Origin: Dryococelus australis
Lineage: Eukaryota; Arthropoda; Insecta; Phasmatodea; Phasmatidae
Direction of reading: 5' to 3'
DNA length: 64,000 nucleotides
Assembly (NCBI GenBank): GCA_029891345.1
Contig: CM057000.1
Coordinates: 125,587,338-125,651,337 of the forward strand
Position 1 is the first letter of the stretch. Each line of letters starts with the position of its first letter. Positions 27,034 through 62,142 of this stretch are shown here, in pieces. Below the pieces are notes generated by a model, which had not been told where the DNA came from, made no database searches, and saw only the letters and a program-made list of their open reading frames with translations. The position numbers and the translations under genes were made by a program.

Positions 27034-27481
27034 GTTAGATCACATATGACCTAAACCCATAAAAAAATCACGTAAAGCTGAATTTTGGCACAGTGATATT
27101 ACTAGTCTTGGAGAACAACATATCAAAATACTCGGATTTTCTAGTGTTCGCGTTCTAAGTTCCTGAGACCTAAGATTTGCACTTTTTTTAATCTATCGCA
27201 TATTGTTATGCAACCGATAGAGTAAATGTTATCAAACATGTCACTGTGCAATCAATGTAATTTTACAACATATCTATAGAAAACCAATTACACAAAATTA
27301 AAATTTCTTTGAAATAATGTCAAACTATTGGCTCTAACTGCTTTAAAATTAATCTTAGACAAACATAACTCCGTATAGAAATTGCTGTCCGTTTTATGCC
27401 CTTTCCAACGGTATATCTACTTGCTCTGGAAAACTGATGGTTCTGAAACTGTAGCGAAATTACGTGATGCATGCATCACTC
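27034..27481 (+). repeat. left terminal inverted repeat of element A
   Basis: Matches 32094-32583 in inverse orientation with perhaps 75-80% identity by eye, so the element is not young. It ends near a palindromic TGATGCATGCATCA block. Confidence 0.85.
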
Positions 27482-27684
27482 TCAACGGTGTTATGTTGTC
27501 GTTTCAGCCCATCCGCAATGACCTTGCAATGGCAAGCGCTACCAGCAAAATCACACAGGAAGGAACAGTGACGTATTGTTACAGATCTATTTACAAGTGG
27601 GTTTCATACATGTGGTAGAGTAGTAACAATTATTTATTCACCTGACAACGGGAGCTTATCACAGCTTCCGAAACTTCTAGACTT

Positions 27685-28020
27685 TTTGCTGTCTTCGTCT
27701 TGTTATTACTGTATATTTGGCTGTCTGCATATCTCGTGCTGTCCTTCTCGTGTGTAAATTCTGTTGATGTGGTCTAGTCACGTTTATGCTGCCTTTGCTG
27801 TTTTCGTCTTGTTATTACTGTATATTTGGCTGTCTGCATATCTCGTGCTGTCCTTCTCGTGTGTAAATTCTGTTGATGTGGTCTAGTCACGTTTATGCTG
27901 TCTTTGCTGTTTTCGTCTTATTATTACTGTATATTTGGCTGTCTGCATATCTCGTGCTGTCCTTCTCGTGTGTAAATTCTGTTGATGTGGTCTAGTCACG
28001 TTTATGCTGTCTTTGTTGTT
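27685..28020 (+). repeat. 109-bp tandem repeat, three units
   Basis: The word TGTTATTACTGTATATTTGG starts at 27701 and 27810 and recurs with one change at 27919, a period of 109 bp. Units are nearly identical. The repeat lies just inside the left inverted repeat of element A. Confidence 0.9.
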
Positions 28021-29237
28021 TTTTCGTTGGATCATTATAATTTTTGATCCTTTCATATGCCTAATTATTTTGACCTACTGCAGCGTGTTTCGCTTGTTGT
28101 TTTACTGTTTTCGTATTGTCATAGTTGTGTCGTCACCGTTGTTTCAGTGCTGCTCATTGTCTAACTAGATAGTTGTATCTTGTTCCATGCATGTACTTAT
28201 ACATTTGATCACATTTTTATTGCAATTGTGTTTCTCACATATATGCTGTGTTCCTTTTTTTATTTTTTCCCGTCGTCAGTGTAGGCAATCGAGATCCTAT
28301 GAAGTTTTGAATTCAATTACACCACACCATTGCCAATAAAATTCACAAACATCTACCATCATAGTAAATTTACAATGCAGGTAAGCATATTGAAGATTGT
28401 TTTAAAAGAGTTATTTAGTGTACTATTTTCTGTCTCGGACAATGTTAGTTTTAAGGAATTGCCTACGATATTACACACGGCCTTTGCATTGGCTACTTCG
28501 ATGGGTATTCAAAGGTGTAGTTCATGTATTGGCACTAGAGTGCAAGCATTTACTCTATTGATTATCATTGTGTCATATGAAGCGTGACATTAAAATTGTT
28601 AATTATGTAAGTTTTAAAATGTATTGGGAAATACTTTCCAATAAAATGAACACACAAGTGTTCTTAGCGTGCCTGAGTAAACAATACGACATCCTAAAAA
28701 AAAGTCCCTAATGAATAAAAAATATTTTGTAAAACCTTTAAAATTCCACCCGAACTTGCTCCAGGGTCGACGATACACATCCAAGCAGCGTTTACAGTAA
28801 ATTGGTCACAACTTATGTTAAAAAAACAAAACCTTTTGATGTTATTTTATAGAAACCTTTAAAATATTGACTTCTAATATTCAGCAACAATGTACAATAT
28901 ATTACATATATACTGAACCACTAGCCTACCAGGCGGCACTCTTGCCTTTGCTAGTTTCTATTGTCATTAACTGCACCTAATCTTTCGTTTTGTAAAAGTA
29001 AAATTTGCCAATGAATCGCAAACGGGAGGGTTTCAACCCCAGAACACCTCTTCCCTCCTATTTTTATGTACACTCTGTCATCTGAGTAACATTTTATGCC
29101 TACTTATACGTATAAAATAGAATGAAGATTTCCTATCAGTTGGTATTACTAGTTTATGAAATTACGAAACTACAAGTTGCACCGATATTAAGGGCAACAA
29201 TAAATACATATATTTCACTGCCCATTTTTAAATTCAA
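28021..29237. other. interior of element A without recognised coding
   Basis: AT-rich; a frame at 28330-28587 has no motif. It may include the 5' untranslated part or an intron of the element's gene. Confidence 0.4.
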
Positions 29238-31008
29238 TTGCAGCTCTATTTTTTTTTTTGTTACAGACTCCAGTTCTCAAGGTCAAACATGATTACAAAG
29301 GTTCAGCATGAAAATGTCAGCTCAGTTCCCACTGAAGTTGTATTACCTGCTCTGCGTTCTTCTCTTGAGCCATTCAATATTAAGGCAGACTGCCTCTTTT
29401 ATGGCAAAAAGGCTTCAGCTCGAACAGAGACAAAAAACATATTAAGTTTGGACGCACAGTACAAGAAGTGACAACACCTATGTTCAAGGAGCATGTTTTG
29501 AATCTGGCAAGAGCACGGAATGATTGGGATGCAGTTGTCTCAGTCCCTGCGGAGGCTGCCCTGGACCTTGTTGAAGCAGAGTCAAAACCCCACAAAGAGT
29601 GTCACCTGATATTTTACTCGTGTATAAAGTTGTTCCCCAATGAGAACAGTGCCCGCGGTAGACCAGAGGATGGTACCAAAAGGACAACATTTCAAAGACT
29701 GTGCTTTTATTTTGAGGAGAGCTAATTTAGAGATTACTTGGAATCTGTTTGTAAGGAACTCGGATACGAATCTTATAGCCGCAGTTACGTGAAGACGAAA
29801 CTTCTTTCACACTATGGAAATCGCATAATTTCCACAGATATCCTAGGGGATAATACAGTTATCAACTTCAAGAGAACAGCAGACAGCATTTTTTTTTTTA
29901 ATGGAACGTGGTATAGGGAACTCAAGAGGTCTGATGTCGATGAGCGGCAATGCATCGTGGTGAAAGCAGCTGAAATCATCGGAGAGGATATACTTACAAC
30001 AGTGTATGGCTGTAATAAGTACCCCAGTGCAGAGGAATCTTCGTTATGCATGGATACGGTCCCAGGTACAGTCAAGTGAATCATGTAGAAAGTGATCACA
30101 TTATCATTAAACCAAAGCATGCACGAGATGTGACTTTCTTCACAGTTACCTACTCTTTTTGATGGTCAATATATGAGGAAGATAGACAAATCTGCCTGTG
30201 CGACACTTTTCACACATGTTTCACCAGAAGAAAATATGGCAGCGGCTCACCTACTTTTATCATCAATAGAGGTTATATATTTAATGCTGCAACAACAACA
30301 TGGCCACGGCTAACTAATTACGGTCAGATCTGTGGCATGTATGTGAAACCTATAACCAATAATTATCCATCCGCAGTGGTTGTATTCGATGGATAAAGTG
30401 GAAAACCAGGAACAAAATCCCAGGAGCAGGCTCGGCGGGCAATGAGGAAGTCGTGTCCTGACATTGTCTTCGGTGAACAGACTATGGTGACTTCTTCACA
30501 CGAAGATTTCTTGAGTAATAAGAACAACAAAGCCCATCTTATAACTATGCTACAATTACGTTTGTTGGAGGCTGGTGTTCAAGTTGTTCAAGCCAAAGTG
30601 CAGTTACCACAACACTCTACATAGAGCTATCAGAGAATCTTGACACACACGTAGGTACCGACACGGATCTCCTAGTTATGTTAATGTATAGGAACTGATC
30701 CAATAGAAGTGTGAGAACGCAGCATCCAAGTACGAGCAACACCTTTGCGAATCTGTATGACATTTCTGCAATCCAAAAAAAATTTTGGCGACATGCAGAG
30801 TGCAGTCCTGTTTGTGCATGATTTCGTCCGAGGTGGTAAAACATCTGTCATTTATGAAAAAGGTAAAATAAAAGCATATAAGATGCTCCAGAAAAATTTA
30901 AGCCTTTGTTCAGAAGTAGTTAACATCTTCAACAGCCCTACATCTCGTCCTAAAGAGGTAGCCACCTCTGGAGAGAGATTTGTTCGAGCTCTGTATCGTT
31001 CTGGATAA
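29238..31008 (+). pseudogene. large zinc-finger plus XPG/FEN1-like nuclease protein, broken (element A)
   Basis: Conserved blocks appear in order on the plus strand. LRSSLEPFNIKADCLFYGKK (29360-29410) is a Cys-x-x-Cys-type motif with the second Cys lost. DLVEAESKPHKEC follows near 29565. LGYESYSRSYVKTKLLSHYG lies at 29758-29817. TNYGQICGMY and VVVFDG lie at 30316-30395, with a stop directly after FDG. FGEQTMVTSSHEDFLSNKNN lies at 30470-30530. VGTDTDLLVMLMYRN lies at 30651-30695. A block ending EVATSGERFVRALYRSG ends at 31005. FDG and G-x-D-T-D-L-L-V are the kind of acidic motifs seen in XPG/FEN1-like (PIN) nucleases. Compared with element B, the middle third is deleted, and there are several frameshifts. 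The family is usually annotated as uncharacterised; an enzymatic role in transposition is inference. Confidence 0.75.
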
Positions 31009-31073
31009 CAATCTAATAATTTTGTTGATCTGCGACTGCAACTGTACAGTCGTTAGAGCAACGAGTATTTTGC

Positions 31074-31339
31074 GAATTCATTCGGAGGCGAGGTAGACAC
31101 CAAACACTCGTTCTTTTTTCCTACTGTTGTGATTGGATGGCAGTTCTTCAGACACGTCCCGCTCAACTGCGAGCCAGTAAAAAGCAGGAAGCGGTAGTCT
31201 GAGTGAGTGTTTAACAGTCCTGTACAGAGGCCTCACTTTATCACATCAACCAATAAGCAAACGATGTTGTCTCTAGTGTATAGAGGGCTGTCCAGCCTAG
31301 CTTGCTGCCAGCTCAATCCGTGAAATACCCGGAGCTCTA
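31074..31339 (+). repeat. dispersed repeat, copy 1 (266 bp)
   Basis: Starts GAATTCATTCGGAGGCGAGG and ends near GAGCTCTA. It is about 90% identical by eye to 41972-42230 in the same orientation. No poly(A) tail, no terminal inverted repeat seen, no coding. It lies inside element A, so it either inserted there or was carried with it. Confidence 0.85.
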
Positions 31340-32093
31340 ACAATCGTACACTTATAGACATACTCTCTCAGACTCTTTTGGGCTCGCGGTGCTGCCTCTA
31401 ACTAAAGCAGTACTCTACCAACGCGAATTGAGGACATATCTTCAGTTAGACCCTACTGTATATGTGTTTATGAAAATAATTGTTTCAATTATACATACAA
31501 GTGTATAACTGCTGTGTTTTCAGGTCCAGGAAAGGCAGGAGAATTAATTGCTGTCTACGGACTGGGGATGGCATTTTCCTAGTTCAGAAGATACTCCCAT
31601 GCCAATTATAACTATATAGCCTCCAGCCCCGAGCTTTTTTGTGCGGATTATTGCCTGTACATGAAAATGCAAACGTAATTGCAATGCTCGGCGTAATTGC
31701 AGAAAAACAGGTAAAATCTGTTATGACACGCGTGAACGCTTCCGAGGCACAAACTGCTTAAACCCAGCGAGTTACGAACTGGACACAGATGGGCTGTCAT
31801 TTGACCATGGTATTGAAATTGAGTATACAATGGAGAGTATTTTGTATTTATAATAATATGCAAAATATACGTAAACCTAAAAAAACCGAAAAAAAAAAAA
31901 TTGTTTTTACTTGTATGTTTAGAATGATATTTAGGTAAGTTTCTACACTGTATAGAAACATCCCCAGCATGCCATCGTTATCTTAATACACCTTGAACTG
32001 AGTATGTACTCTTCAATTTCAGACCAACTTTAACTAATGAATTAAATTTAATGCATCGCAGGATGAGTACGTGTAGAATGCAGTATGACGTAA

Positions 32094-32583
32094 GGTGACG
32101 CATGCGTCACGTAATTTGGCTACAGTTTTAGAACCACCAGTTATACAGAGCAAGTAGATATGCCGCTGGAAAGGGCATACAATGTACAACAATTTTTATA
32201 CGGAGCTATGTTGGCCTAAAATTCATGTTAAAGTAGCTAGGGCCAAAAGTTTGGCATTATTTCGAAGAAATTTTAATTTTTGGTAATTATTTGTTTTGTA
32301 GAAATGTGTTGCAACATTACTCTAAACATAAACTTCACAGTGATATGTTTTATAAGGTTTCTCTTTAATTTGAGACCAAACTGAGCTCAATCGCAGTGTC
32401 GGTTGTGTAACAATACACGCTAGAGTAAAATAGTGAAATTCATAGGTTCCAAGAAATTTAGGGGCCTAAAAATGTAGGACGCGAACACGAGAAAGACAGA
32501 GTATTTTTATATGTTGTTCTCCAAGGCCAATAGTGTCACTGTGCCAAAATCCAGCTTTACATTATATTTCTATGTGTAAAAAC
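32094..32583 (-). repeat. right terminal inverted repeat of element A
   Basis: Inverse of 27034-27481, with small insertions. It is followed directly by TTAA. Confidence 0.85.
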
Positions 32584-32587
32584 TTAA

Positions 32588-32992
32588 TCTGAATCATGCC
32601 GCCGCGGTTTCATTATTCGTCCGGCCGTGATTTGGCAATGGCGCTTTCATGCAAGCACTATGGACATGGCTGGCCACATTTTTCCATTAAATAACAATGC
32701 ACGTATCGAGTTATACCTGCTCAATTTTGCTTCAAATTGAGCGAGGAAGTTTGCACCATCCCCTAGCCACTCGTTTTACGTGGTCGGTATTTGAAGGGGC
32801 GCCGTCAAGCTGGCGAGACGTGAAGTGCAGTGTCAATGTTAAGTTGCGTTTTAAAAACAATTTCTCATAGAGTTTGATCGAGTCGCGCTGTCGTGTAGCG
32901 ACGTTTCAAAATTGTTTCATCGTTCCGCCGTTCGAAATTGTAGTTTCGTGCAACGTAAGTGGCTTCACGGAAATATTTTTGAAGAGTTTGTA
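32588..32992. other. no gene recognised
   Basis: GC-richer sequence between element A and the minisatellite. The minus-strand open frame of the minisatellite ends inside it at 32865. Confidence 0.4.
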
Positions 32993-34289
32993 ATGTTTCG
33001 TGTTGCCGTCTGATTTGTTCCGTCAGAGCTGAGAGAAGGCCTACTCCACGGGTGTGAAATGTTTCGTGTTGCCGTCTGATTTGTTCCGTCAGAGCTGAGA
33101 GAAGGCCTACCCCACGGGTGTGAAATGTTTCGTGTTGCCGTCTGATTTGTTCCGTCAGAGCTGAGAGAAGGCCTACTCCACGGGTGTGAAATGTTTCGTG
33201 TTGCCGTCTGATTTGTTCCGTCAGAGCTGAGAGAAGGCCTACTCCACGGGTGTGAAATGTTTCGTGTTGCCGTCTGATTTGTTCCGTCAGAGCTGAGAGA
33301 AGGCCTACTCCACGGGTGTGAAATGTTTCGTGTTGCCGTCTGATTTGTTCCGTCAGAGATGAGAGAAGGCCTACTCCACGGGTGTGAAATGTTTCGTGTT
33401 GCCGTCTGATTTGTTCCGTCAGAGCTGAGAGAAGGCCTACCCCACGGGTGTGAAATGTTTCGTGTTGCCGTCTGATTTGTTCCGTCAGAGCTGAGAGAAG
33501 GCCTACTCCACGGGTGTGAAATGTTTCGTGTTGCCGTCTGATTTGTTCCGTCAGAGCTGAGAGAAGGCCTACTCCACGGGTGTGAAATGTTTCGTGTTGC
33601 CGTCTGATTTGTTCCGTCAGAGCTGAGAGAAGGCCTACTCCACGGGTGTGAAATGTTTCGTGTTGCCGTCTGATTTGTTCCGTCAGAGATGAGAGAAGGC
33701 CTACTCCACGGGTGTGAAATGTTTCGTGTTGCCGTCTGATTTGTTCCGTCAGAGCTGAGAGAAGGCCTACTCCACGGGTGTGAAATGTTTCGTGTTGCCG
33801 TCTGATTTGTTCCGTCAGAGATGAGAGAAGGCCTACTCCACGGGTGTGAAATGTTTCGTGTTGCCGTCTGATTTGTTCCGTCAGAGCTGAGAGAAGGCCT
33901 ACCCCACGGGTGTGAAATGTTTCGTGTTGCCGTCTGATTTGTTCCGTCAGAGCTGAGAGAAGGCCTACTCCACGGGTGTGAAATGTTTCGTGTTGCCGTC
34001 TGATTTGTTCCGTCAGAGCTGAGAGAAGGCCTACTCCACGGGTGTGAAATGTTTCGTGTTGCCGTCTGATTTGTTCCGTCAGAGCTGAGAGAAGGCCTAC
34101 TCCACGGGTGTGAAATGTTTCGTGTTGCCGTCTGATTTGTTCCGTCAGAGATGAGAGAAGGCCTACTCCACGGGTGTGAAATGTTTCGTGTTGCCGTCTG
34201 ATTTGTTCCGTCAGAGCTGAGAGAAGGCCTACTCCAAGGAATGTGAAATGCCAGTCCTTGTGACATCGCACTCGTGTCTCAGTTTTCAA
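32865..34289 (-). CDS. hypothetical repetitive ORF across the minisatellite
   Basis: A 474-residue frame runs through the whole array because 66 is divisible by 3. It repeats a 22-residue unit, GVGLLSALTEQIRRQHETFH plus TR, with a non-repeated N-terminus of about 18 residues and a C-terminal tail of about 37 residues. A second minus-strand frame (32965-34266) is also open, so openness alone is weak evidence. The unit could form an amphipathic helix. No promoter, splice or homology support is visible; it may well be non-coding. Confidence 0.2.
   Translation of the reverse strand: MKTETRVRCHKDWHFTFLGVGLLSALTEQIRRQHETFHTRGVGLLSSLTEQIRRQHETFHTRGVGLLSALTEQIRRQHETFHTRGVGLLSALTEQIRRQHETFHTRGVGLLSALTEQIRRQHETFHTRGVGLLSALTEQIRRQHETFHTRGVGLLSSLTEQIRRQHETFHTRGVGLLSALTEQIRRQHETFHTRGVGLLSSLTEQIRRQHETFHTRGVGLLSALTEQIRRQHETFHTRGVGLLSALTEQIRRQHETFHTRGVGLLSALTEQIRRQHETFHTRGVGLLSALTEQIRRQHETFHTRGVGLLSSLTEQIRRQHETFHTRGVGLLSALTEQIRRQHETFHTRGVGLLSALTEQIRRQHETFHTRGVGLLSALTEQIRRQHETFHTRGVGLLSALTEQIRRQHETFHTRGVGLLSALTEQIRRQHETLQTLQKYFREATYVARNYNFERRNDETILKRRYTTARLDQTL
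32993..34236. repeat. 66-bp minisatellite, about 19 copies, with 330-bp higher-order pattern
   Basis: The unit contains TGTTGCCGTCTGATTTGTTC, CGTCAGAGCTGAGAGAAGGC and CTACTCCACGGGTGTGAAAT. Copies are almost identical and vary at two sites: GAGCTG/GAGATG and TACTCC/TACCCC. GAGATG occurs in plus-strand units 6, 11, 13 and 18, and TACCCC in units 2, 7 and 14. This gives a recurring five-unit block (units 2-6, 7-11 and 14-18) with units 12-13 as a partial block. The first and last units are truncated or diverged. Confidence 0.95.
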
Positions 34290-34534
34290 GGATTTTCTTG
34301 TTGTTCAAAGCAACGAATGTTCCTAACTTGCCTTTTTCCAAGGGACCTGTCGACCACGTAATCGGCTTGCATGCAATAGTAATATTTAATGCTTTTTTAT
34401 TATGGGGTGGTATTTTATTAATTTTTATGATTTTTGTGGGCTTTGGAGGGGCCTGTTGGCCTTCTAGCATAATGAAAGTTACGTACAATAAGTAGAGCTT
34501 TATTCTCTATATTAGTTAGTATAAATTGTTGTTA

Positions 34535-34933
34535 AAGGCTGTTCACGATAAAGTGAGCACTTTTGAAATCAACCTCAGAAAAAAAGTAACTGACCCTGCC
34601 TGCATATATTTCAACGGGCGCACTTAGTGACGTGCGCCCAGTAAAGTTGGTAACGATGGATAGAAGGTAGTTCCATATCCTAACATCGAATAGAAAGTGT
34701 TACGTAATCCATTTGAGAATAATTTAAATGATTTCTTTCGTTTACTGTTTTTTAATTGCATAGAACTGAAAAAAATTAGTATATTTGTAATAAATCTACT
34801 TTTCTAATAACTCCACAGTTTTGCTTGACTGAAGCATGAATAAAGTGATGAGGCCCATGACAATGTTAATTTTACATAAGACAGAAGGATACACAACGTG
34901 CATACAAGCAGATCTTTTACCATAAACAGCGTA
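34535..34933 (+). mobile_element. MITE, 'GGCTGTTCACGG' family, long type
   Basis: The left end is AAGGCTGTTCACGATAAAGT followed by GAGCACTTTTGAAATCAACC. The right end is degenerate (TTTTACCATAAACAGCGTA). Interior words GTAAAGTTGGTAACGATGGA and TAGTTCCATATC match the 39747 copy. Confidence 0.85.
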
Positions 34934-36272
34934 TCGTTAAATTAATCAGTCACCAGCATTATCTTGACGTTTGAGTTTCTGTTTTCATTAATTTTATCAT
35001 GTAAGTCCTAGAGCAAATCCATTAATTTTAATAAACATAATCAAGTGCAACATCGTCACTAAACGCAAGGCTCTGAACTGACGTGTAGTGTTCTCGTCGC
35101 GCTGCGTGTGTCCGTGGGACTTTAAGATGCGACCTTATCATTTTACTGGAGGAAAATATGTGGCAAGGTTCAATGAAGGACCCTTGAGAATTTTTTTTTA
35201 AATCTTACGTGCACATTTTGAAATACAGCGCTTCGAAGAAAACAAACATATTTAGCTAAGTTGGAGTACTCGGAAGTGCTGTTCCCGATGTGTGTGACTT
35301 CCTGAATGCGCTCAACAAGTCTCGTCTGAAGTGCGAATTCTTTTTGTAGAAATAAAACATGTATTTCAAATACACCGCAACGCAATCCAAGCGCCGGGTG
35401 GGCAAACCTCTCAGATAAACAGAAAAAAATAATCATTTGCTTGGATGTCTGCGATGAACGATTTACCTGGAACGTTGATGATGTCGGTTTCTATCCGGCC
35501 GGGATTCCCTTGGAGGTCTCTCCCGAGCTAGAAAGACACCTGTTCGCTTGAGGAATCGTGATAGTGCCAACCCGTAAGTGATAGAGCACACTTGACGCAA
35601 TAAAATAGCAAACTGCTGTCGACCAGCACACAACCACGTCTTGTCGCACGAGATTATCAGACCAGCCACCAGCAACACAGGGATGTTAGATCATCAGTTC
35701 TCTGTCATGGTACGGTGCATTCAAAATAATGGTACACTTACAGAAAAGTAGGGTACATTTATAAAAAAAAATTTAAAAAAAAAATCGTAAAAGAACAATT
35801 TTATGTTTGTTTTACTTCCATTACACAACGGTTGTTTGAACGTTGTACTACTGATATGAAATAGAAATTTAATACATCCTCTAATTTGCAGGTAAATCAT
35901 AGGGGTTCGGTTTTAGACTTAAACCAAGCGCTACAAAGTGATCATATTTTATTAGACTAAACTTTAAAGACATTAGCTGAATATTTTTACTCAGTCAGAA
36001 TATGGAACATTTTATGTCTAACATCACTGCAGCAGCATCTAGCAACAGCACTTCTAAGAAGGAAGGCGCCTGGAGGGGGGTGCGAAATTCCAGAGATAAA
36101 ATTAACAGGAAGTAGACGCAACAAAAGAAACCTGGGTGACACTTGTCAACCACGCGCCCTCTACAGGCTTAACAAAACCATTATAAACCAGTTATTTCAA
36201 TTTTAAAAATATAACTTTACAGTTTTATACTCAAGAATCATAAGACTCGGCTTCCAAAAAGGGCACACATTA
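34934..36272. other. no gene recognised
   Basis: AT-rich, with A runs near 35765-35785 and a GC-rich patch at 35480-35700. Nothing identified. Confidence 0.4.
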
Positions 36273-36515
36273 TAGGCTGTTCACAGTAAAGTGAACACTT
36301 TTTAAGGCCCTTATAAATTTTTCCTTTCATTAAATTTCCATCTGCTTGCTGCTTTCTGATATAAACGTTGCAATGTGACCAATAAACACAGTGTATACAT
36401 TTCATCACCAACAAAATTAGATGCCTGAGGCAGCAATACGATATATTTAATAGTGGTTAGTACCTGTTGGGTCCCCCCCCCCTTCAAAAGTGCTCACTTT
36501 ACTGTGAACAGCCTA
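36273..36515. mobile_element. MITE, 'GGCTGTTCACGG' family, short type
   Basis: Near-perfect 30-bp inverted ends: TAGGCTGTTCACAGTAAAGT left and GTGCTCACTTTACTGTGAAC followed by AGCCTA right. TA lies outside each end. 243 bp, non-coding; a C run sits near the right end. Confidence 0.95.
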
Positions 36516-37013
36516 TACCTAACGAGAAACACCTACGTAGATTACACATATTAGTAGCAACTCCTAATGGCTGTCGCTGGCTAATTTATTGTGCCAAGTT
36601 TGAATTTTCTCTAGGCTATTATAGTTGAAGGTGCGTAGTTTTAAATAAGTTTTGTGCTAATTTTTCCTATTCGTTAACGATTTTTTTTTCCAACATAAAG
36701 TCAATCATGGAGATTTTTTTCTACTTTTTATAACTTCTGAGTATTTTGGCAATTTCTGCATCGTTTTATATGTATTTTGCTATTGTATAAATTAATACAA
36801 AATTAGATTTCGCATAAAACCAATACCTGTGGATTTATGAGCAATAGTCAGGAAAAGTATAGCTGATGTGTATATGTTCCTACATTTTAGAAATGTACAT
36901 CCAATTTCTGTTGACAGTTTTCGGACGAGAAAAAAATCAATGAATCATTAGGATGGACAGAAGTGCAACGTAATTATCCAAAGCTGAGGAGTACATGCCA
37001 CATGTGTACGTAT

Positions 37014-39080: not shown

Positions 39081-39102
39081 ATATCGACTTCCCAGCAGCT
39101 AA

Positions 39103-39673: not shown

Positions 39674-39746
39674 TAAGGCCACTTCCACGTATGTGCCGAT
39701 TACATTTTCACCTGTTTCCTCAGACACATGCGTGGCGCGGGTGATA

Positions 39747-50017: not shown

Positions 50018-52846
50018 AGTAGCCCATTTGCAAAACCTGCTATGTACAAAAAAATTACGATATTAGATTATTGTTTATATGGATTCTCTATGCACTGCGC
50101 CATCACTTAAAATATTTACCAAGATAAAATTCCAGCTATAAATTATATGAAGGTGGAGTTGAAAAAAAAAACAGTAGTTTGCAGAACCTGCTATATGCAT
50201 ACAGTCTCAGGATGCAAAACCAGTTAAAAGTGGAGTCATGTTTACCATTGCAAAACAAATTAATACGGTCACCTTTCAGTTGCAGATGCAAAACCAGTTA
50301 TATGTAATTCCGAACATTACTGGACTCCTCTTTATATGAATATAACTGCTGCTGTTCGTCTGCTGATGAAAAGTGAATTATCGAACCGTAAAGTGGGCTG
50401 TCCTGCTTATAAAACAGCTGAGTGTGATATTTACGCACAATTTATTACACACGTTTTGCATGTGTGTAGTTGCCTGACTGTACCGAGTAGTCACCGACGT
50501 CTGATTATTAATTTTGGTTTCAATGAGTGATAATAAAGAAAAATGTGGTAGTGAGACAGAATGTATTGTTGAAGTTGAACCTGGGAGATATCGGAAGCGG
50601 AAAAGATGCCCCGAAACATGGGAAAGAAATATGGCAAAAAGAGCTAGGCAAGCTAGTTTAACCTAAACTATCAATATATTATGATCTGATATTTCTGATT
50701 CTCCTGACGATTGTGTTTCTCCTGCTGTTTCAGACACCGGCCAAAAGGTTTGTCTAAAGAGCCCACCTGCGAACATGGTAATAAGGGACATTTTCGGTGT
50801 AAAGGCCTATCTTTGCAAGACATCAGAAGGATTCACAAGAAATTCTACCAGCAGCCGGATAGTGAGTGGCAGAGTAATTTTCTTCTTCAGCATGTTTCTG
50901 TTGAAACTCCAAAGAGAAGTTGTACATCTGCAGGTATACCAAGCAGACGTAGAGTATGTACAAACTTTTCTTTACCAAAGCGAAGACAGAATGCCATTAG
51001 AAATATATGAGTGTGCAGGGCAGTTTTCCTTAAGATTCTACAAGTAGGTCGTGATCGAGTAAACAGATTGTGCCAAATATTCCTTACAACAGGCTCAACA
51101 CCAACAGGTGAAAGTCGAGGCGGTAACCGTAGATCTCAGAGATAGGAACTCAAGCGTGAGGCTATGAAAAATCATATTAAAACCTTTAAGCCTCTACAAA
51201 GCCATTACTGCCGCGGATAAGCATGCAAAGCGGCAATACTTACCTAGTGACTTAAGTGTTCGAAAAATGTGGTTCGTGTATACAGAACACAACCCAGAAG
51301 ATCTGCATGTGCAATATGACTATTACAGAACCATATTTAGTATCGGTTTCGGAAGTCCTTGTGTGGACAAGTGCTCCACATGTTGCCAACTTGAAAGCAA
51401 GATTTCAGCTGAGAGAAGTAAGCATGGGAAAATAAACTTAATACTACAGTTAAAAGTTCACAAGAAACGAGCAGAAGTATCTTACCAGAAATTACTTGAA
51501 GAGATGGTAAGCAACATTACTTTCAGTTACAACTGTGAAAAAAACCTAGCTCTGCCAAAGATTCCTGACCAGGCCACATACTATGCAAGGCAACTATATC
51601 TGTACAATTTTACCATATGCCAAGGATCTTCAAAATCGTCAAAAACCAAAGACAACGCTTTCTGTTGTGTATGGATGGAAAATGAATTCAGTAAAGGTTC
51701 CAATCAAACTGCATCCGCTGTTCGCCACCGCTTGATCGATACAAACACGGACACGGCCACCACGGCCCGATTGTTCTCCGATGGATGTGGTAGACAGAAC
51801 AAAAATAAAACTGTGATAGCGATGATTTTACACTGGTTGTAGGGCATTCTTTGATACCACCAGACAAGATATTTGGGCATCTAGAAAGAGAATTTCACTC
51901 GCGCCGCGTTATTGAAACCCCAGGCGAGTACGTGAAAGTTATCAAAAAGCGCGGGACTGTTACTCATCCAGGTGAAGACTGTCCTGTCAAAGACTGGAAA
52001 ACTTGCGCATCAATTCCAGAAAGCAAAGGAAATCTTAAAAAGCAAGACAAATACAGCTGCTTCAGTACGGGGGAGAGCCGTTTTACAATTTCGAGAGCGG
52101 GGAACCAAAAAGTTTGTGCAAGAGGGGAAAAACACTCAGGCGTACTCAAATTCCTGATGTTCCAAAGGGAATGCCTGTAAAGCCACCGAAACTCTGTGAT
52201 GTCAGACGACTTCTTGTACTTCACTTCGGAGAAGAATGATACAGCAATCCGAAATTGTAACTCTTTGAAAATGTCTTTGAAGAGGAGAGTTTTCCTACTG
52301 AAGGTCTGAATGAGGTCGAAGAGAGTGAAGAACCTCTGGACTTTGATTTACTACAAGATGATGAAACTGCAGTAGCCTAAACTATAGGAATTCTTAATTC
52401 GCAGGCTTTAAGGTTGTATATTTTTATATCATTAGACTGGGAAGTAAGTAAAAATGTTATAAACATTTCATAACTTGGACAGTGAGAAAGATGAGGGAAC
52501 ATTTTAGTTTAATTTCAATAACAATCTGTTGTCATTCACTTATAGTTATGTGTGTGACATTAAATTACCAACATTATCTGCCGGTGAGTGTCGATGATAT
52601 TTTCTATGCAGATAGCTGGTATTGCAAACTAAGACAGAATACAAATGGCCGCCATAAGATTTGCAAAACCTGTTTTGTGAACAAAACAGTTGTAAAACCT
52701 GTTATACGTATTTTATTTTTTACAATAACTAACTAACCACCTTTGGTAAAAATTATTTAATATTTTTTTTTGCAAATTAAATTTATAAGTTTTTTGTGAT
52801 TGATCAGAATTAATTTAGCTTACACATAGCAGGGCTATGGGCTACT
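50018..52846 (+). mobile_element. 2.8-kb DNA transposon with transposase-like gene
   Basis: The inverted ends are AGTAGCCCA (50018) and TGGGCTACT (52838-52846). A second block, CCTGCTATGT, is matched by ACATAGCAGG at the other end. Motifs of the type GCAAAACC(T/A)G(T/C)TATATG recur near 50029, 50177, 50216 and 50287 on the left and 52660 and 52690 on the right, all in the same orientation. They may be binding sites of the encoded protein. No clear target duplication was found. The superfamily is unknown to me. Confidence 0.75.
50523..52380 (+). pseudogene. transposase-like protein of an insect 'uncharacterised' family, frameshifted
   Basis: ATG at 50523 opens a basic N-terminus with RKRKRCPETWERNMAKRARQ. 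A stop follows near 50662. Then come CEHGNKGHFRCKG (about 50773-50811) and, at 51210-51300, KRQYLPSDLSVRKMW. The long open part at 51267-51842 has VDKCSTCCQLESKI (zinc-type Cys), LPKIPDQATYYARQLYLYNF and LFSDGCGRQNKNKT, where the Asp of FSDGCGRQN resembles an RNase H-like catalytic position. After another stop, PPDKIFGHLEREF and VKDWKTCASI continue the family, with an acidic end at 52380. At least three disruptions make it inactive. A transposition role is inference from its placement between inverted ends. Confidence 0.8.
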
Positions 52847-53628
52847 AATACAACACAATGTTTTCCCGAAAGGGCGTTTACTTCGCATAATGATCTATGC
52901 TTCGCTGGGAACAACTGCAGTTCTAACATTCTTATGCGAGTGAGGCGCTGACAACTTCAATTAGCAGAATTATTTTTACTGAGTGGAAAGTGTTTTGGAC
53001 TATGATGCAAAATTATACCTTTACATGAAGCGTTGGCAATTTTGGTTAAAATAGAAAAGCTTTCTCAGACATTGTTTAATTTTATCACCAACATCTTACC
53101 ATGCTATTAGCCAAAATAATTTTACGGCCGTATCAAAGTAGTGTTTTTTTTTTTTTTTTTTTACCACGTCATAACTTTTAACACGCACCGAAATGTAAAT
53201 GGGCAATTCATGCTACACAACTACTAATTAGTAATTTCACACTTGTGCGATTCAAAGTCGTGCATCATATTTCCTCAAGCCTGTTCGGAAGCGGACACGT
53301 GGCATCTAAAAAAAAAAACTGCACGACAGAAGTATTCCGAGTGTCGCTGAATTTGCACGGGAAAGAAAGGAATGTTCCACATAAACAATAATGTTCAGCT
53401 TGTCTATCAACTTTGCCAATATGTGTGGCTGCGCGATAATTGTAGGATGGATTCTCCCTGTAAACTGCTGAGGAAGTGGTAGCGTATGTGTAACAAGTGT
53501 TGGTTAGCGATACATGAACGTTTCCATATTCTGGAATGTATCAGCTAACTCATAGAAAGAACATTTTTGGACGCATCGTTTATCATCAGCAGGAATCTCG
53601 TTTGAAAATGCTAATAAAACTTTCTTCC

Positions 53629-53667
<39 letters not shown>

Positions 53668-53727
53668 ATATATTCCTCTGTTATCCCTTCAACTGACAAC
53701 AGGATTGTCACAATAAGCGATTTATCT
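52847..53727. other. no gene recognised; long poly-T
   Basis: T runs at about 53144-53161 and 53633-53662. Nothing else seen. Confidence 0.5.
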
Positions 53728-54652
53728 TTATTTTCCCAACAGTCCGCTGATAGAACTAATATACGGCGTTTGGCCTAATCTTTTTATCCATTTGCGTTCT
53801 GAAAAACTGGGATCCCACAACGGCCAGGAAGCTATCGTGCAAACCAGCAGTGCAGAAATATACCGTGCGATGGTATTTTTCTCGTGAAAGATTGAGCCAT
53901 TAGAGTAGATGTCTACAATCTCGTATTTACACACAGCCACAGGCAACAAAATTAGCATAGTACAAAACATATCTGCAGTTTACCAGAACACTCTTTTAGA
54001 CAAGATATTAAAACCAGGAGATTACACTAATTCACTTGTTTGGCATTATTTAATGACGTTAAAAGGAGAATTAAAATACGCTGGTTCCATGAAATACTTA
54101 ACTGGGAAATAAAAGTTTTTACTCAGTGGGTTTTGTAGAATACTGCCACCTCTCTTAAAATATTTACTTATGGGGGGTGGGGGGAAATGGTAAAAATTAT
54201 TAACTCACTTTATCGCAAACGCAGTCTTCTATGGTTTCGAAATGAAATCATAGGCAAATGCAATTAACATAATTTAATTTAACTGATTTCGCTTTTTAAA
54301 ACTAGTGTAACTCAATATTTTTCTCATGGTTAGCAAAAAAAATAGAGCTAAGAAAAAAAAAGATAACTGTATACTCAGTCAGCGAGTTCACATGAGACAC
54401 ATCATTTTATAGTATCATCTGGGATTCGACGACACCGACAGGTAAAATTATACACATGGTTGAACAAAAAACTGCAGTCATGTTCTCAGGTCGGGTGAAC
54501 AAGAATGTGTACATAATTGTGCAGAAACCGAGGGCAAAAATGTTATACAAAATTGTGCTAAAATGATCACGGCGTTGTCTGACAACAAAGGATGGCATCT
54601 GCACACATACCAATAAACTAAAGTAGAAAACTCTAGTGACCAGAGAATTCAT
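53728..54652 (-). other. possible decayed exons of a multi-pass membrane protein
   Basis: Two minus-strand frames, 54652-54407 and 53970-53728, are hydrophobic. They share a related segment: VFCSTMCIILPVGVVES in the first and MFCTMLILLPVAVCKYE in the second. An acceptor-like AACTGCAG precedes the second at about 53975. The pattern could fit exons of a chemoreceptor-like gene or a duplicated relic, but I cannot name the family. Confidence 0.2.
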
Positions 54653-54879
54653 TCTTCTAAGAAAAAAAAAAAGGGGAATTCAAATAGTAGCTAATCAGTG
54701 TGGGCATTGAGTGTGACGTTCACAGAAATAAGTACATAGGGAAAATGGTGTTAGTGTATATTATACATAAACACTAATATTCTGGAGTAAATATACAAGT
54801 CAGTGAAATTATGGTGTTAGTTAAAAATATGTCACACGTGTGAAAAATAATATCCATGTGGGGAGGGGGGGGGGGGGCG

Positions 54880-55080
54880 TGTCTGAAGTTTGCTTGAGGT
54901 ATGTTTGAAGTCTGAAGTTTCTATGGAATCTGTTTGAGACCAGTTTGAAGTTTGACTGAGGTTTGTTTGAAGTAAGCTTGGACTTTTTTTTTTTAAGGTC
55001 CGCAGATCAATATGAGGTCTGTTTGATGTCTGCCAGTATGGTTGGTTTGAATTGACTTGGTACATTTGAAGTTTCAAAGG
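54880..55080. repeat. degenerate GTTTGAAGT-type tandem repeat
   Basis: About 15 imperfect copies of a word near TGTTTGAAGTCTG, with a G run at 54860-54877 just before. A minus-strand frame across it is low-complexity. Confidence 0.6.
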
Positions 55081-55258
55081 CCTAACACTTATGGTCGCTG
55101 AATGAAGGGCGATTACGATTTAAGTTGATGGCTGCTGAGCGCTATACTATACTTGTAACACAAATTTACGCAGGATGTATATCTGGATTGGTTTGATCAT
55201 ATAAATTTGTATTAAATACTTTTAAAAACCAGAGCAGCATTTAAATACATGTACTAAC

Positions 55259-55330
55259 AGAGAGAGAGGGGGAGAGAGAGGAGAGCGAGAGGAGAGAGAG
55301 GAGAGGAGAGAGAGAGGAGAGGAGAGAGAG
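55259..55330. repeat. GA-rich microsatellite
   Basis: GAGAGAGAGG/GAGAGGAGAG repeats over about 70 bp. Confidence 0.95.
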
Positions 55331-55518
55331 ACTTTTACAGGAATCTTAATAGAGTTTCAATATAAATTAAAAAATGTATACTCTTTTAAAATCAGAAAAC
55401 TTTTATTTTTAAAAGCGAAAATATCGACTACATAATTTTGTATAAACATAGAGCTAAAGTTTTGGCTAGTTGATGCTTAACATATAATTCTGGCAATTAC
55501 TTCATACAATGGGGTGAA

Positions 55519-55710
55519 GGTGACCGAGCGGTTAGCCCGCTCGCCTCCCACCAAGGCAATCCGGGTTCAATCCCTGGCCTGGTCACTTTGGATTTTCGCA
55601 TGTGGTAATCGTGCCGGACGATGCCTCAATCGCCCTCATCGACTCTCAAGACCACGATGTTAACAGCCGTCCAAATCTCTTCATTCACTCAACTTACAAT
55701 GAGACTGGAT
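55519..55710 (+). mobile_element. tRNA-derived SINE
   Basis: The head GGTGACCGAGCGGTTAGCCC has an A box, and GGGTTCAATCCC is the B box. The outer GGTGACC/GGTCACT pairs 6 of 7 like an acceptor stem. The head is followed by a tRNA-unrelated body starting CATGTGGTAATCGTGCCGGA. The exact 3' end is uncertain. Confidence 0.8.
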
Positions 55711-55992
55711 TCAAGCAAATTATAAGTAATTACTTTATTATTCGAATAAATTGTATTCCAAGACCGAGTAAAATCAGTTTATTGATCTCAGAAATTTAGC
55801 ATGAACGACTGCAAAGCACAGCATTAATTTTAACGTATGTCCCCGAGGACATATGTTGGAATTAAGCAATTTAGGTTACTTATTTTAATAATTTAATCTC
55901 TCTTTTCACAGTTTCGTACCGTCTCTTCCTGGTCATGGCAGCTCGCTTCCATTTCTTTTAGTTTCAGATTTATAGTGTAGTGCATTTAGGTT

Positions 55993-56513
55993 TTAACCCG
56001 GACCAAATCATTAACAAAACGAAACCTTTTGGAATGTGTTTGGCACTGTCCCCTCGTCATTTTCTGAAAATTCCCTAATTTTCCCACTCCAGAAAAATTC
56101 GCCATCTTAGAAAACCCCCCGCCAAAGCAGGATTTTACTCAAAAGTTTATATATCTAGAACGAAAGCTCGTAGAAAGACCCAACTTGTGCCATTCTCTTC
56201 TATTATGACGGTTCTACATGGAAAAAATATTTTTTTTTTTACCTTCCAACAAGATAAAAATATTGATCAACTCTTTTTTTGGCAAAAACATGGTTCTTGA
56301 AAACAAAAATTAATTCAAATTTTTAATCTTGTAGTTTTGCTATTAGTTTTACAAGTTTTCTTCTCAAACAAAAGCTGTAGAGCTGTTAAAGGCGTACCAG
56401 ATTCATGTGTCACTTTTGTACGTACGTGAAAAACGAACGGCCAAAAGAAGCATTAAACATGCATCGCATACGTGTCAGCTGTCACCCCGGCTGCGCCGCA
56501 GCTCTGGTAGCCG
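55993..56513 (+). repeat. left terminal inverted repeat of element B
   Basis: Inverse match to 61641-62142 with small indels in A and T runs. The inner end is a GC-rich CCGGCTGCGCCGCAGC block. Confidence 0.9.
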
Positions 56514-56774
56514 ACTATTTGCTAGATTTTGGCAGGAGCTGCAAACTGCAAATACAGTAATAAATAAAATAAATTACTATCTGAAGTAATCTACGTTTTA
56601 ACAATGAGGTGGCTGTAACCAAATTTCGTTTTCGCATTAAAATTAATTAAAATATATTTGACTAATTACATTTCCCACAGACATGCTATAAAAATAAACA
56701 TTTTCCTCATAAGAAATTTTGCAGTGCCACAACAAAGTGTAAACATGAATAAGATTACCTGTTTCATGGGTAAA

Positions 56775-59700
56775 GTGCAGGATCATCACTCGAATTTTGT
56801 AGATCATCGATACCATCATCATCCTCTATCAGCGGTAATCGATATCAGTGCACTTCAAACAGTGTCTTACAGTCCCAGCTTCGGCGGTCACAACCAGTTT
56901 TGCAGATGCACGATACCCAGCATAACAGCTTCTGTGGCGCCGGTTCTAACAATGTTGGTATCAGGGAGTATTGGCTATTTTCAAACTTCCTACCCAAACA
57001 GTAGGCTCCATCGCCCAGTTTTTCCACTCTTGTACCTGATGGAAAATACGAAATGAATGCTGCTTAGTAGCTTCAAATGTTCGAGGCAAGATCGATATTC
57101 TAAAGGTACCATAGATGTTTTGCTTAGCTACAGTTTTAAGCTACAAGTGGTAGCACAGCCTATGTATATTTTCCGAAGGTTCCCCACCATAAATAACGCA
57201 AATAAATACTTCTCCAGCTTCAGCGACCTCTTGCGGGGAAGAAGACTTGTCATTGAAAACAGCCACCTTATTCCTTAATGAATCATCACATTCTAGTTTT
57301 ACATATGACATTTGCCATGCTGAGACGAAGTGGTATCGCACCCAGTAAAGGCATGTATGAACAACATGCACTCCTTCATTGAACCAACGCCTCTTGAAGT
57401 TGTGTTATGTTGAATACTTTCCTGGCTCTTTTGCCTTTACTAGGTGTTAACATACACGTATTCCTTCAGAATGTGCAACAATTAGTCCAAGTAAATCAGT
57501 GTCTTCTCCTACCAGTATTGATATTTTTCCAAGCTTACCTTTCGACACCGCATTCAAAACAAGCAAGATACCAGCATCTGCCTCAGCTTAGACAACGCTG
57601 ACTCCTCATTTCCGTAGATGTGTTCAAAGTAAAGACATGAGTTGTGCTTTATTGCTAGCATTAGATAAAAGCATATCTGGAGGCAACGCAGTGAAAGAGT
57701 TTTCCACCACAAGTAATTCAGAAGAGCACCCACGTCGAAAATGTTCATGGTCTTTAGTTGAAGGTTTTCCATATCCGTTTAACACAACAGTCACATCCCA
57801 TGATATATATCTGCTGGTTAAGTAAGAAACATATTTACTCACTATTTATCCATATGTTTCATGGCATTGTCGAGAACATAAATGCAACAAATATCCGCCA
57901 TATATAACATAAGCAGTGTTCTTTGATTCATTTACCAAATCAGAACTTGGTTTGAGGTGGTTTTCAAGAACAGGCAATAATGCGGATTTACCAGAGCTTT
58001 TCCTCATATTGCAGTTTTCGAGCAGAGCTGGCGGCCAAGCAGAAAGTTCGTAGATTAGGTTTTCTGCGAGCTATTCGTCTGATCTCACCAAGCACAGCAT
58101 GCAATGGAAAAGCTGAGTTTAATAAACTTCAACAAAATGTTCTCTGACCTGGATACCTTGGGTGGCTTTCGAAAGTGTTGTCACAATATCTTTTCTCTTC
58201 AGAGTTATGCCACTGAATGTCTTTCCAACTATTGCTTTCATTGCGCTGAGTCCTGCATCTTTTGCAGCATCACAGTTTACTGCTGATGATGCTATCAAGC
58301 CATTAGTAACACAAACCAATGAAGGCGATCCTGTTTCGAATGGGTTGTGAAACTTCAACCAATCTTGCAGCCTGAATGCGTCATTCTTATCTCTTGTCTT
58401 GAATGACTCTCTGAGCTCCACATGTTGATAGGTTGTAGCAGAGTATACTCCGGCCACCTTTTCAAGTGCATCAACCACTTTAACAGTTGCAGTTTGATAA
58501 ACCTCTTCCATGTGTCAATCCTCCTGTGGATTCCATTGAACGCATGAAATATAGTTCGATTATCATAAGAAGAATAGTTGATACAGGAACAGGTACAGGA
58601 TGCAGTCCAGGTTCGGGACCAAAACCTGCCAGTTCTCTTTATTGTAAAATATGATTTCCCGACAAATTGTCCGAACTCTTCTGTAGGAAAAGATTCGCAT
58701 TATCTAAGCATTCGTTGTTACTAAATGTGTGCAGTTTTGGCGTACTCCAAGTGTGCAGCAGGGTGGAAATAAGGAAGCATACTTTGGACACAGAATAGTT
58801 GCAGGTTATAGTCTCCAACACGTCCAGCTCTAATATACAAAAGTACAATTTCCAATATTTCAATGTATTGAGCCCATAGCTTAGCAGTGCGACTTGCAAC
58901 TGACAGCTCTTCAATCTTCGAATCAATGAGTTGTACATCTCTACATTCAGTAACATGTTCAGGAAGTAGACTGCCCTCCAATATGTCACAAAACGTATCT
59001 TCCAGGTTGTGTATAATGTGTTGTTCTGGACACCTTTGAAATAATACACTTAATAATACTTGTTGAGTCAGAATGTGAGCTCTCAAACCTCTGGAGTACT
59101 GCATACCGCTAAGCATATGATGCACAGTGTTCTCTGCGTATATGGTATTCCACATATCTTCTAGTCCACAACCACCCATGGTTTTGTCTATTGCTTCAAG
59201 GAAGGACATTAGAAGGTGAAATCCTAGAATTTTAATTTCAATGCGCGACGAAACACTATAAGGAGGCGCTGCCAACAGAATATCAAACGCCTTGTTACAA
59301 AGTGGTTGATCAAAAGTAACAAATACTTATTTTTGATGATCTTTTCACTTTCTTTTGCCAGATATACCAAATCAGTGTATATGGTAGACTGATTGTTTGT
59401 GTCATGATTTATGAAAGTTAGTGATACTAATGCAGACTTGTCATGAGATAAATGTTTGTGCGCATCCTCCATACAACCATTCCAACTAGGTTTACTTATA
59501 GTTGAAGAGTCTGATGTAAATACTACAGCCCAGAGTATATCTAAAATCTCGTGTTTTGGGCACTTTTAGGTTCCAACTGTACACTTAAATTAGTTAGATC
59601 AGTTGCTGTAATTTGAGAAAGTCCGACAACAGATTGCTGCTTATAACAAACCATTGGTAAGTAGGCTAATGAGCCTACTGCAGACGTAGCTGTTGCAGGT

Positions 59701-61165
59701 ATATTTCTGGGAATTGGATTTTGGTTTTGCAGTATAGAATGTGAAGTGACAGTTAGTACACCACCTATTACATGAACCGAACCAAAACCATTATCAAATA
59801 TGTACTGAACATATGACGGTTTATCAATACATGTTGATGAGTTCAATGTAGCAGAATCCTCGTACTTCAATGTCTCTTTATAAGTGCTGCAGACACCCAA
59901 ATTCGATAAAATGTCTATTAGAAACTTTGATCCGAATTCTCTATGCAGGTAAATACTTAACCGGATGTGTATGGGTGATACAAAAGATCTCGACCTCGCA
60001 GCAACCACAATGCAGTGTTGTATTGTAAGTGATGGGAATTTTTTTGGTAGAATCATTTCATTCATAAAAAGTGACAGTGTTTCTGGCATTAGATCATGAC
60101 CCGCGTGTGATGCTTCCTCTGCCGTTGGGTATGTTTCGAAATTGTATGCACGAAAGCGAATGTCTTCCCGGATATTTTTTTTTCTGCCATTAGCACAATC
60201 CTTTTTTCTTCCATTTGTTTGATAATTTTTCATTTTCTTCATACCATTTTTCCGTTAATATTTTATCTTTGTGCCCAGAAAAACAAACAACAGAACTACG
60301 TCCCGGTATTTCTGTAAATACAACAGAATCTCCGTAAAACTCTTTTAATTTTCTTTTCAAGTGCTTTCCGGAATAAGGATCTGTTGTTGAATCTAATCGT
60401 TTCATAACATCCGTCAAGTCATTGGAGCAAATCTGACATTCCTCGTTTTCTTCTATGTAATCACACAATTTTATAAACGATTCGTTAATATCATTACGAA
60501 TGGGGCGACCTGCACATTTGTTAACAATTCCTGGGATTGAGTGAAGAATACTGATAGCCTTTGCAACGGTAACGCCCTCCGGCTGCCACTAAGTCTGTAA
60601 CCCCACTTAATAGCAATGTTACTCCCCTTCCCCAGTTATCATCCCTGACAATAGCATGCGATCTTATTGTTTCTAATATCCCTAGTGTCCTCCTGACTTT
60701 ACTAATGTTTTGATTCGGGTTTTTCGAGTCAAAGGTAGCAATCTCTCCACAAAGTAAGCAACTATTCTCGATATTAAAACCACCGGACCTTAGTGGTCTG
60801 GCTGCACATAGTGTACTTTCATCTTTCTTCACTGGCGGACGCCGAACATAGTTTTTTTCCGGCACTGTTAATGGACGCACGCCACTTCACTTTCCTCAGC
60901 ACGTTTGTAAACATCATCTTCTTTGATACGACTTATATTCTGTAATTTTTTTTTCAATAGCTTTATTAACAGCTCTTATATCTCTATCACTTCCACAGCA
61001 AGTCACACATTCCATCACAGGCAAATATGATTTACGATCACACGTGAAGCAACAAGAGCTATCCGACCGCCCACGTAATGTGACTAACAGAAGAAGCGAC
61101 AACCACAGGGAACGTGAGCTTATTGCCCTCTTATCCCTCCGTCGTCTACCATTCTGTTTCGACAA
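56775..61165 (-). pseudogene. large zinc-finger plus XPG/FEN1-like nuclease protein, broken (element B)
   Basis: Blocks in family order on the minus strand: ECVTCCGSDRDIRAVNKAIE (61010-60950); a QCRKNYVRRPP join near 60850; NIENSCLLCGE and RDDNWGRG with TDLVAAGGRY (60770-60560); ECQICSNDLTD and LKRKLKEFYG (60440-60330); FGSKFLIDILSNLGVCSTY (59940-59885); FDNGFGSVHVIGG; MGGCGLEDMWNTIYAENTVH (about 59180-59120); VQSMLPYFHPAAHLEYAKTA (58780-58725); LQDWLKFHNPFETGSPSL (about 58370-58315). The nuclease-like part has VVLNGYGKPSTKDHEHFRRG (57785-57725), AEADAGILLVLN (about 57580-57545) and ILVGEDTDLLGL (57520-57485). ASWDCKT-type Cys motifs end it (CKTGCDRR, about 56890). EADA followed by GEDTDLL is very like the XPG/FEN1 EAEA...TEDxD signature. 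The usual FDG is NG here. Several frameshifts and stops make the gene inactive. Confidence 0.8.
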
Positions 61166-61640
61166 TATCCCATTTCACCCTAAACTTCCCAATACAACTA
61201 CATACTTCGCGTAAAATATCACGTACACAAAATACAGTTATTATTATTACTATTATTAAGGGGCGTCAATTTCTTTTTGCACACAGCAACTTACATGTCA
61301 GTAATTTAAAGGCACTGTAATACTATTTATTGTATTTTTTATTTCAATATTATTTTAAAGTTTTTACAATTCAGCCACGTATTCTGAAAAAGTATATAAC
61401 GATTTATTTAATTAATTATCCATCAAATACATAGTTATTATTACTATGAAATATAACTCCCACATGTGCAGAAATGAGTAATGATTCAAATAATACACCG
61501 ATAGATGAAAAGACCAACTCCTTAAGTACACATTATTTTCAATATTGTTATCTCATTTTTCAATAAATATAAAACTCTTAATAAAAGAAAAAAAGAGTAA
61601 ATATAAATTATCTTGAAAATTAGTTGAGTTCAAAGTCCGG
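61166..61640. other. element B interior, 5' non-coding
   Basis: AT-rich sequence between the gene start region and the right inverted repeat. It would hold the promoter and 5' UTR; no specific site recognised. Confidence 0.4.
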
Positions 61641-62142
61641 CCGGCTATGGGAGCTGCGGCGCAGCCGGGGTGACGGCTGACACGTATACGCTGCATGTTT
61701 AATGCTTCTTTTGGCAGTTCGTTTTTCACGTACGTACAAAAGTAATACATGAATGTGGTACCCTTTTAACACCTCTACAGCTTTTGTTTGAGAAGGAAAG
61801 TTGAAAGCTGCATTTTTTTTTTTCGTTTTGAAGAACCATGTCTTCGCCAAAAAAAAAAAAACGAGTTTATCAATACGTTTATGTTGTTGAAAGGTAAGAA
61901 ATATATATATATTTTCATGTAGAACCATCAAAATAGGAGAGAATGGCACAAGTTGGGCCTTCTACGAGTTTTCGTTCTGGAGATGTACATTTTTTGAGGA
62001 AAAGCTTGCTTTGGCGGGGGTTTTTCCAAGATGGCGGATTTTGCTGAAGTGGGAAATTTGGGGAATTTTCAGAAAATGACTAGGGGCGGTGCCAAACACA
62101 TCCCGAAAGGTTTCGTTTTGTTATTAATTTTGTCCGGGTTAA
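61641..62142 (-). repeat. right terminal inverted repeat of element B
   Basis: Inverse of 55993-56513, ending GTCCGGGTTAA. Confidence 0.9.

Follow-up and report, generated by a model that had tools for sequence, protein, structure and literature searches.

Decayed DNA transposons of Dryococelus australis, probably of the AcademX group: true termini, 3-bp target-site duplications and unequal ends

The 64,000-nucleotide stretch of Dryococelus australis DNA analysed here (the window; contig CM057000.1, positions 125,587,338 to 125,651,337) contains two elements, termed A and B, each with long terminal inverted repeats and each enclosing the remnants of one large gene. They are decayed copies that represent two families of one group of cut-and-paste DNA transposons, most likely AcademX of the Academ superfamily. 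A preliminary description of the window had recognised the long inverted ends and the common protein family, and both observations stand; it had also placed the element borders at TTAA, and this is a misreading. The parts of the two elements are as follows.

27022..32596, plus strand (gene strand): element A, 5575 bp, extent from family comparison; no recognisable duplication
27030..27033: TTAA at the left of A, within the terminus
27055-27479 (plus) and 32095-32577 (minus): long terminal inverted repeat arms of A, 72% identity over 484 bp
27685..28022, plus strand: 109-bp tandem repeat, 3.1 copies, within A and upstream of the A gene
29268..30076, plus strand: A protein remnant, N-terminal part, matched to B pieces
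30262..31005, plus strand: A protein remnant, XPG/FEN1-like nuclease; the candidate DDE core is absent between it and the N-terminal part
32584..32587: TTAA at the right of A, within the terminus
55970..55972: left target-site duplication (TSD) of B, TTA, from flank comparison
55973..62172, minus strand (gene strand): element B, full extent, 6200 bp; homology among copies ends at TAGTGCAG on both sides
55973..55993, plus strand: short outer end of B (type I, 21 bp), 95% identical to the end string for that type
55993..55996: TTAA at the left of B, within the terminus
55993-56513 (plus) and 61642-62142 (minus): long terminal inverted repeat arms of B, 82% identity over 530 bp
57311..57911, minus strand: B protein remnant, XPG/FEN1-like nuclease (VIYGGYLLH, GEDTDLL and HAFTGCDTTSS blocks), start approximate
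58501..60209, minus strand: B protein remnant, candidate DDE core (FDN, TFDQPL and TGGLTHGRG blocks), with stops and frameshifts
60199..61087, minus strand: B protein remnant, N-terminal part with Cys/His motifs, matched to A pieces and homologues
62139..62142: TTAA at the right of B, within the terminus
62142..62172, minus strand: long outer end of B (type II, 31 bp), at the 5′ side of the gene, 97% identical to the end string for that type
62173..62175: right TSD of B, TTA, from flank comparison

The coding remnants of A and B are homologous, with 27% identity and expectation values (E) of 8e-16 (nuclease part) and 2e-12 (N-terminal part). A comparison of their DNA gave no usable similarity (best E 0.029), and A and B are therefore regarded as different families of one group. 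The identical block order proposed earlier holds for the N-terminal and nuclease blocks and fails for the middle one, which A lacks. In B most of the protein survives, interrupted by numerous stops and changes of frame. Both elements are now dead, as the core is missing in A and the frame of B is broken at many places.

The true termini are found by comparison with sister copies elsewhere in the genome, where homology continues outward past TTAA. In B-family copies it reaches beyond TTAA by 21 bp on one side and by 31 bp on the other, and A-family copies align outward past TTAA to 5′-TAGCCCAGTCAA. The corresponding termini are 5′-TAGTCCAG / TAGCCCGG in the L034 family, 5′-TAGTACAGG in the L036 family and 5′-TAGTCCAGGAATATTAG in the 51.95 family. 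The common terminus is 5′-TAGYNCAG; when 16 end strings picked by eye are tallied, a common box close to TAGYCCAGKMAWWTTAR results, and 15 of these strings begin with 5′-TA. Homology ends at the same TAG within each multi-copy family; past the box the copies cease to match, and a 3-bp direct duplication follows. The TTAA letters themselves are variable. At the place of TTAA, 11 fetched left-type ends of A relatives have GTCAAG (eight), GTTAAG as in A (two) or TTCAAG (one), and five of seven fetched right-type ends have TTAA, always within the element. TTAA or TTAG is often part of the terminal box in several families, again within the element.

An exact 3-bp TSD is present in 17 of 35 two-ended elements belonging to nine families, with 78 of 105 positions identical. 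Mismatched pairs of flanks agree exactly in 40 of 1190 cases, and none of 100,000 permutations gave a count as high (maximum 9). No element has an own-pair match at 4-6 bp, nor do 11 B-family elements at 4-10 bp. The exact duplications have no sequence in common: TTA occurs three times, TAT twice, and ATG, TTT, TAG, TAA, TCA, TTG, CTC, CAA, ATA, AGC, AGT and CTG once each. In the youngest-looking family (repeat identity 91-96%), all four are exact. Within the B family an exact match is found at the proposed boundary in five of 10 elements (22 of 30 positions), and at most one is exact when the boundary is shifted by 1-6 bp in either direction. The B-family termini in this 10- or 11-element analysis were located at the positions that best matched two typed end strings. 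For the 35-element count the terminus strings were picked by eye and several are degenerate; two are doubtful, that of L031 (no TSD counted) and that at the left end of C11:74.95 (exact TSD counted), and without both the count is 16 of 33. Left out of the 35 were C17:83.6, which has both flanks in common with C17:99.8, C12:27.9, whose left end is missing, and the A-family elements C2:341.13 and C1:334.92, for which the stretch fetched at the opposite end contained no recognisable terminus; only paired ends entered the count. The 3-bp result is independent of the assignment to Academ.

The preliminary description had taken TTAA to be the target, and a TTAA duplication is found in none of the 35 elements. 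It is highly improbable that the elements represent an undescribed TTAA-targeting superfamily with the XPG-like protein as mobility enzyme: the TTAA near both ends of A and B, the recurrence of TTAA/TTAG inside the terminal box of several families and the gene copies that accompany the repeats would all suit such a superfamily, but the homology of sister copies runs outward past TTAA, and exact 3-bp duplications are present in 17 elements against none of TTAA. TTAA as a target is already refuted, and a false superfamily is removed before being named. At the same time, the true borders and target duplications are fixed for a widespread animal transposon group.

The repeats are dispersed mobile elements. 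At least 69 protein matches are present in the 3.4-Gb assembly, a lower bound from the scoring of 32 of 5172 first-look candidates. With a B-type gene copy defined by at least one match of at least 60% identity to the homologue P0001, a B-type terminal repeat adjoins all 14 B-type copies among the matches listed, on both sides in seven; the large protein thus belongs to an inverted-repeat DNA transposon, as had been supposed. The B repeat has 41 matches in the genome, and these form four further two-ended elements with no gene among the protein matches listed, the smallest of ∼0.68 kb. The A, L036 and L034 repeats have 42, 39 and 21 matches, respectively, and for the 51.95 repeat 40 of 619 first-look candidates were scored. 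Thirteen of 14 divergent gene copies were read on both flanks, and in 10 of these, long inverted repeats with identifiable ends were found; the remaining copy, C12:27.9, is flanked on either side by L034-type repeats. The locus L037 has only one B-type end.

Two B-family copies, at G000:C17:83.6 Mb and 99.8 Mb (L048, L049, L040, L041), have both flanks in common; this locus was therefore duplicated as a segment and not by transposition. At another locus (L032, L128, L129, L130; G000:C12:5963000-5978400), a gene copy of the family lies between repeats that begin TACAGTAGACTCTCGATTATCC, which we take to be a pogo/Tigger-type end. These repeats were hence not counted as ends of the family, and the locus may represent a nested or flanking insertion. 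Relatives were also sought beyond animals. There were 117 pattern matches in viral contigs and 66 in prokaryote genome contigs, none of which was confirmed, and none was found in plasmids.

With the read-through of B as query, at least 157 proteins were found at E ≤ 0.001, the search having scored the 8000 candidates that share most words and listed 120. Many relatives are full length, with ∼1450 amino acids, and come from insects and molluscs; sources include thrips (Frankliniella), a wasp (Venturia), a moth (Diatraea) and the molluscs Mytilus, Mercenaria and Littorina. P0001 is 72% identical to B across the whole searched part. An alignment of 25 proteins displays N-terminal Cys/His motifs, the candidate DDE core, an XPG/EXO1-like nuclease and a Cys-rich tail, presumably CXC/TSO1-like. 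Invariant in this alignment are D416, D586, H617 and E830 of the middle region and D1059, D1100, D1167, D1169, D1192, D1194 and D1248 of the C-terminal block. An alignment of 84 proteins likewise has seven invariant acidic columns (D851, D891, D964, D966, D989, D991 and D1046), and the seven invariant nuclease aspartates are presumed to be the XPG/FEN1 active-site positions.

The profile of the 84 sequences matches human exonuclease 1 (EXO1) with E 0.0015, and the alignment is in register at the VFDG, AD/DAD, eDtDlL and GCD..S..G.GK motifs. Because of this agreement at four motifs, the nuclease domain is assigned by sequence to the XPG/FEN1 family, whose acidic set and H2TH-type GCD...G.GK motif are both present; the XPG/FEN1-like core seen by the preliminary description is thereby upheld. 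The middle region, with its FDN / TFDQPL / IEQ residues, is predicted from the invariant acidic residues to be a DDE active site. Its only recurring Pfam match is a weak one to DUF6589, in six of the 25 members at E ≤ 0.01, and a literature search found no paper with DUF6589. The XPG protein had been proposed as mobility enzyme or accessory. The second role fits the XPG domain, which is probably accessory, and the DDE-like core in what had been called the unique middle, absent from A, is more likely the mobility enzyme.

The nuclease of Academ transposons is taken to be of the XPG type. As described in a published account of the superfamily, AcademX makes duplications of 3 or 4 bp and AcademH of 9 or 10 bp, a difference tied to the nuclease encoded by the one and the helicase encoded by the other (PMC10045372). 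AcademH is present in animals and fungi, to go by the title of Kojima (2020), cited in PMC10045372. The present group has in common with AcademX, by description, that it consists of DNA transposons with an encoded nuclease and 3-4 bp duplications (PMC10045372). It is because the nuclease and the 3-bp TSD match these traits that AcademX is the most likely assignment, and this assignment is independent of the end asymmetry described below. The separate, undescribed lineage of the preliminary description is not supported, a nuclease-bearing group with 3-4 bp duplications having already been published (PMC10045372). AcademH belongs to the same superfamily but is the helicase lineage with 9-10 bp duplications (PMC10045372); duplications of that length are absent from the 11 B-family elements, and no helicase was found among the Pfam matches of the 25 proteins at E ≤ 0.01, the search for helicase being confined to these proteins.

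Two TTAA-associated superfamilies were also considered. Kolobok is a DDE transposon, as is predicted for the present group, and carries accessory nucleases in several lineages (PMC9587614). The nucleases described there are of the PD-D/ExK, DEDDh and His-Me types, whereas that of the present group is XPG-like (PMC9587614). Kolobok also has TTAA duplications and 5′-RR ends, in contrast to the 3-bp duplications and 5′-TA ends found here. It was rejected on both counts, the 35 elements having no TTAA duplication and the end strings chosen by eye having 5′-TA (15 of 16) rather than 5′-RR...YY-3′ ends. PiggyBac, to which TTAA had been the lead, was rejected as well, as the TTAA duplications are lacking in the 35 elements and no piggyBac domain is present among the Pfam matches.

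Several observations weigh against the assignment of A and B to AcademX transposons with a DDE core. Academ membership is likely on described traits, the comparison being one of descriptions and not of sequences. The passage on Academ in PMC10045372 says only 'nuclease', without XPG. None of the 25 proteins has a Pfam transposase or DDE match at E ≤ 0.01, the DUF6589 match is below its cut-off in the three members whose scores were inspected, and the basis of the DDE assignment is the conserved residues. Eighteen of the 35 elements have no exact TSD, A among them, with flanks TAT/TGC. When the B-family boundary is shifted, identity is at most 10 of 30 positions except at +4, where it reaches 19 of 30 versus 22 of 30 at the boundary itself; this high value arises because the positions compared then belong to an inverted motif of the element itself. 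Finally, the gene copies L033 and L035, read on both flanks, have no long inverted repeat, and L032 is bracketed by repeats of a different type of transposon. A superfamily separate from Academ, in which a DDE-like core and an XPG nuclease were joined independently and a 3-bp TSD is made, would agree with the weak DUF6589 match as the sole Pfam match and with the purely descriptive comparison; it is nevertheless improbable, as a nuclease and a 3-bp duplication are the very traits reported for AcademX (PMC10045372).

The two ends of an element are of different types and usually unequal in length, as measured in this one genome. End length was counted from the terminal TAG up to where the inverted repeat starts; it depends on the repeat start chosen, and the difference between the two ends hardly does. 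Automatic alignment gave a difference of 8-11 bp for 29 of 35 elements. Other values were obtained for A (14), C14:5.3 (13), C11:74.95 (5) and C10:128.16 (0), and two elements could not be measured, C2:133.99 (alignment score 8) and C3:370.04 (fetched stretch too short). Approximate end lengths are 21/31 bp in B, 24/34 in the A family, 28/38 in L034, 20/30 in L036, 33/43 in L031, 26/35 in the 51.95 family and 18/31 in C14:5.3, a single copy; C11:39.65 has 28/38 (23/33 in a second measurement) and C5:155.7 has 26/36 (21/31). In the B family each of the 11 two-ended elements pairs a type I with a type II end. In eight of nine families it is the gene-5′ side that carries the longer end, and in B this holds for all seven two-ended copies that bear the gene. 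Three of the four copies of the 51.95 family have their longer end on the 3′ side. In the fourth, C2:259.8 (G000:C2:259.77-259.78 Mb; L122, L019, L123), the end types are flipped relative to the gene when compared with the three sister copies, which suggests that the segment enclosed by the long inverted repeats was inverted.

As the repeats of different families look unrelated, it is the spacing and not the sequence that is kept. A difference of about one helical turn between the ends may be how the enzyme tells them apart. In RAG/Transib signals, where this is the 12/23 rule, and in P-element ends, a one-turn difference in spacing makes the enzyme pair unlike ends; in both systems, as here, the ends differ by about one helical turn between a terminal and an inner motif. 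Their transposases and motifs are unrelated to the present ones, and the inner part is here a long inverted repeat. It is tentatively proposed that a 12/23-like rule operates in these elements, the distance from the TAGYNCAG box to the repeat differing by one turn (9-11 bp) because the transposase pairs only unlike ends. To our knowledge the Academ superfamily has not been studied biochemically, and the listings of a literature search contained no report pointing to XPG in Academ or to unequal ends. If true, the rule would add a further independent case of this logic to those of RAG/Transib and the P element, parallel to the 12/23 rule of V(D)J recombination, and would account in a simple way for how the ends of these elements are recognised.

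Shared descent alone is the main rival to a kept end spacing. The ∼10-bp difference would then be a chance ancestral insertion or deletion without function, inherited by all families. All copies have a common descent, such that one event could be shared, and four of the 33 measurable elements have other values. In the L036 family (L131-L144) the long end resembles the short end with an extra ∼10-bp segment like its neighbour, and the one-turn difference possibly arose by a duplication of this kind, which would also suit a chance event. However, the difference is 8-11 bp in most elements and typical of eight of nine families, yet spacers and repeats look unrelated, and absolute lengths drift (20/30 to 33/43), which argues that the difference is held rather than the sequence. 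A chance event is thus considered rather unlikely.

Beyond the long inverted repeats, termini, 3-bp duplications, nuclease domain and dispersed copies, which are directly observed, we infer the catalytic steps as follows. At each end the DDE core would bind an inner site as well as the terminal box, and the transposase would require the one-turn difference between the outer ends, such that unlike ends are paired. The candidate DDE active site would cut and join the ends with a 3-nucleotide stagger. The XPG domain would trim the 5′-strand flaps or other branched intermediates left behind, much as host flap endonuclease probably acts once a retrovirus has integrated.

Two other features of the window are of minor interest. 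Directly beyond the right end of A is a 66-bp minisatellite of 19 copies with 98% matches (32992-34250), which yields two long minus-strand open frames of 479 and 437 amino acids that are repeat artefacts. The open frame at 51168-51842 has a sub-threshold match to DUF7869 (E 0.0011) and, together with the adjoining frames at 50685-51047 and 51809-52180, perhaps represents another mobile-type gene.

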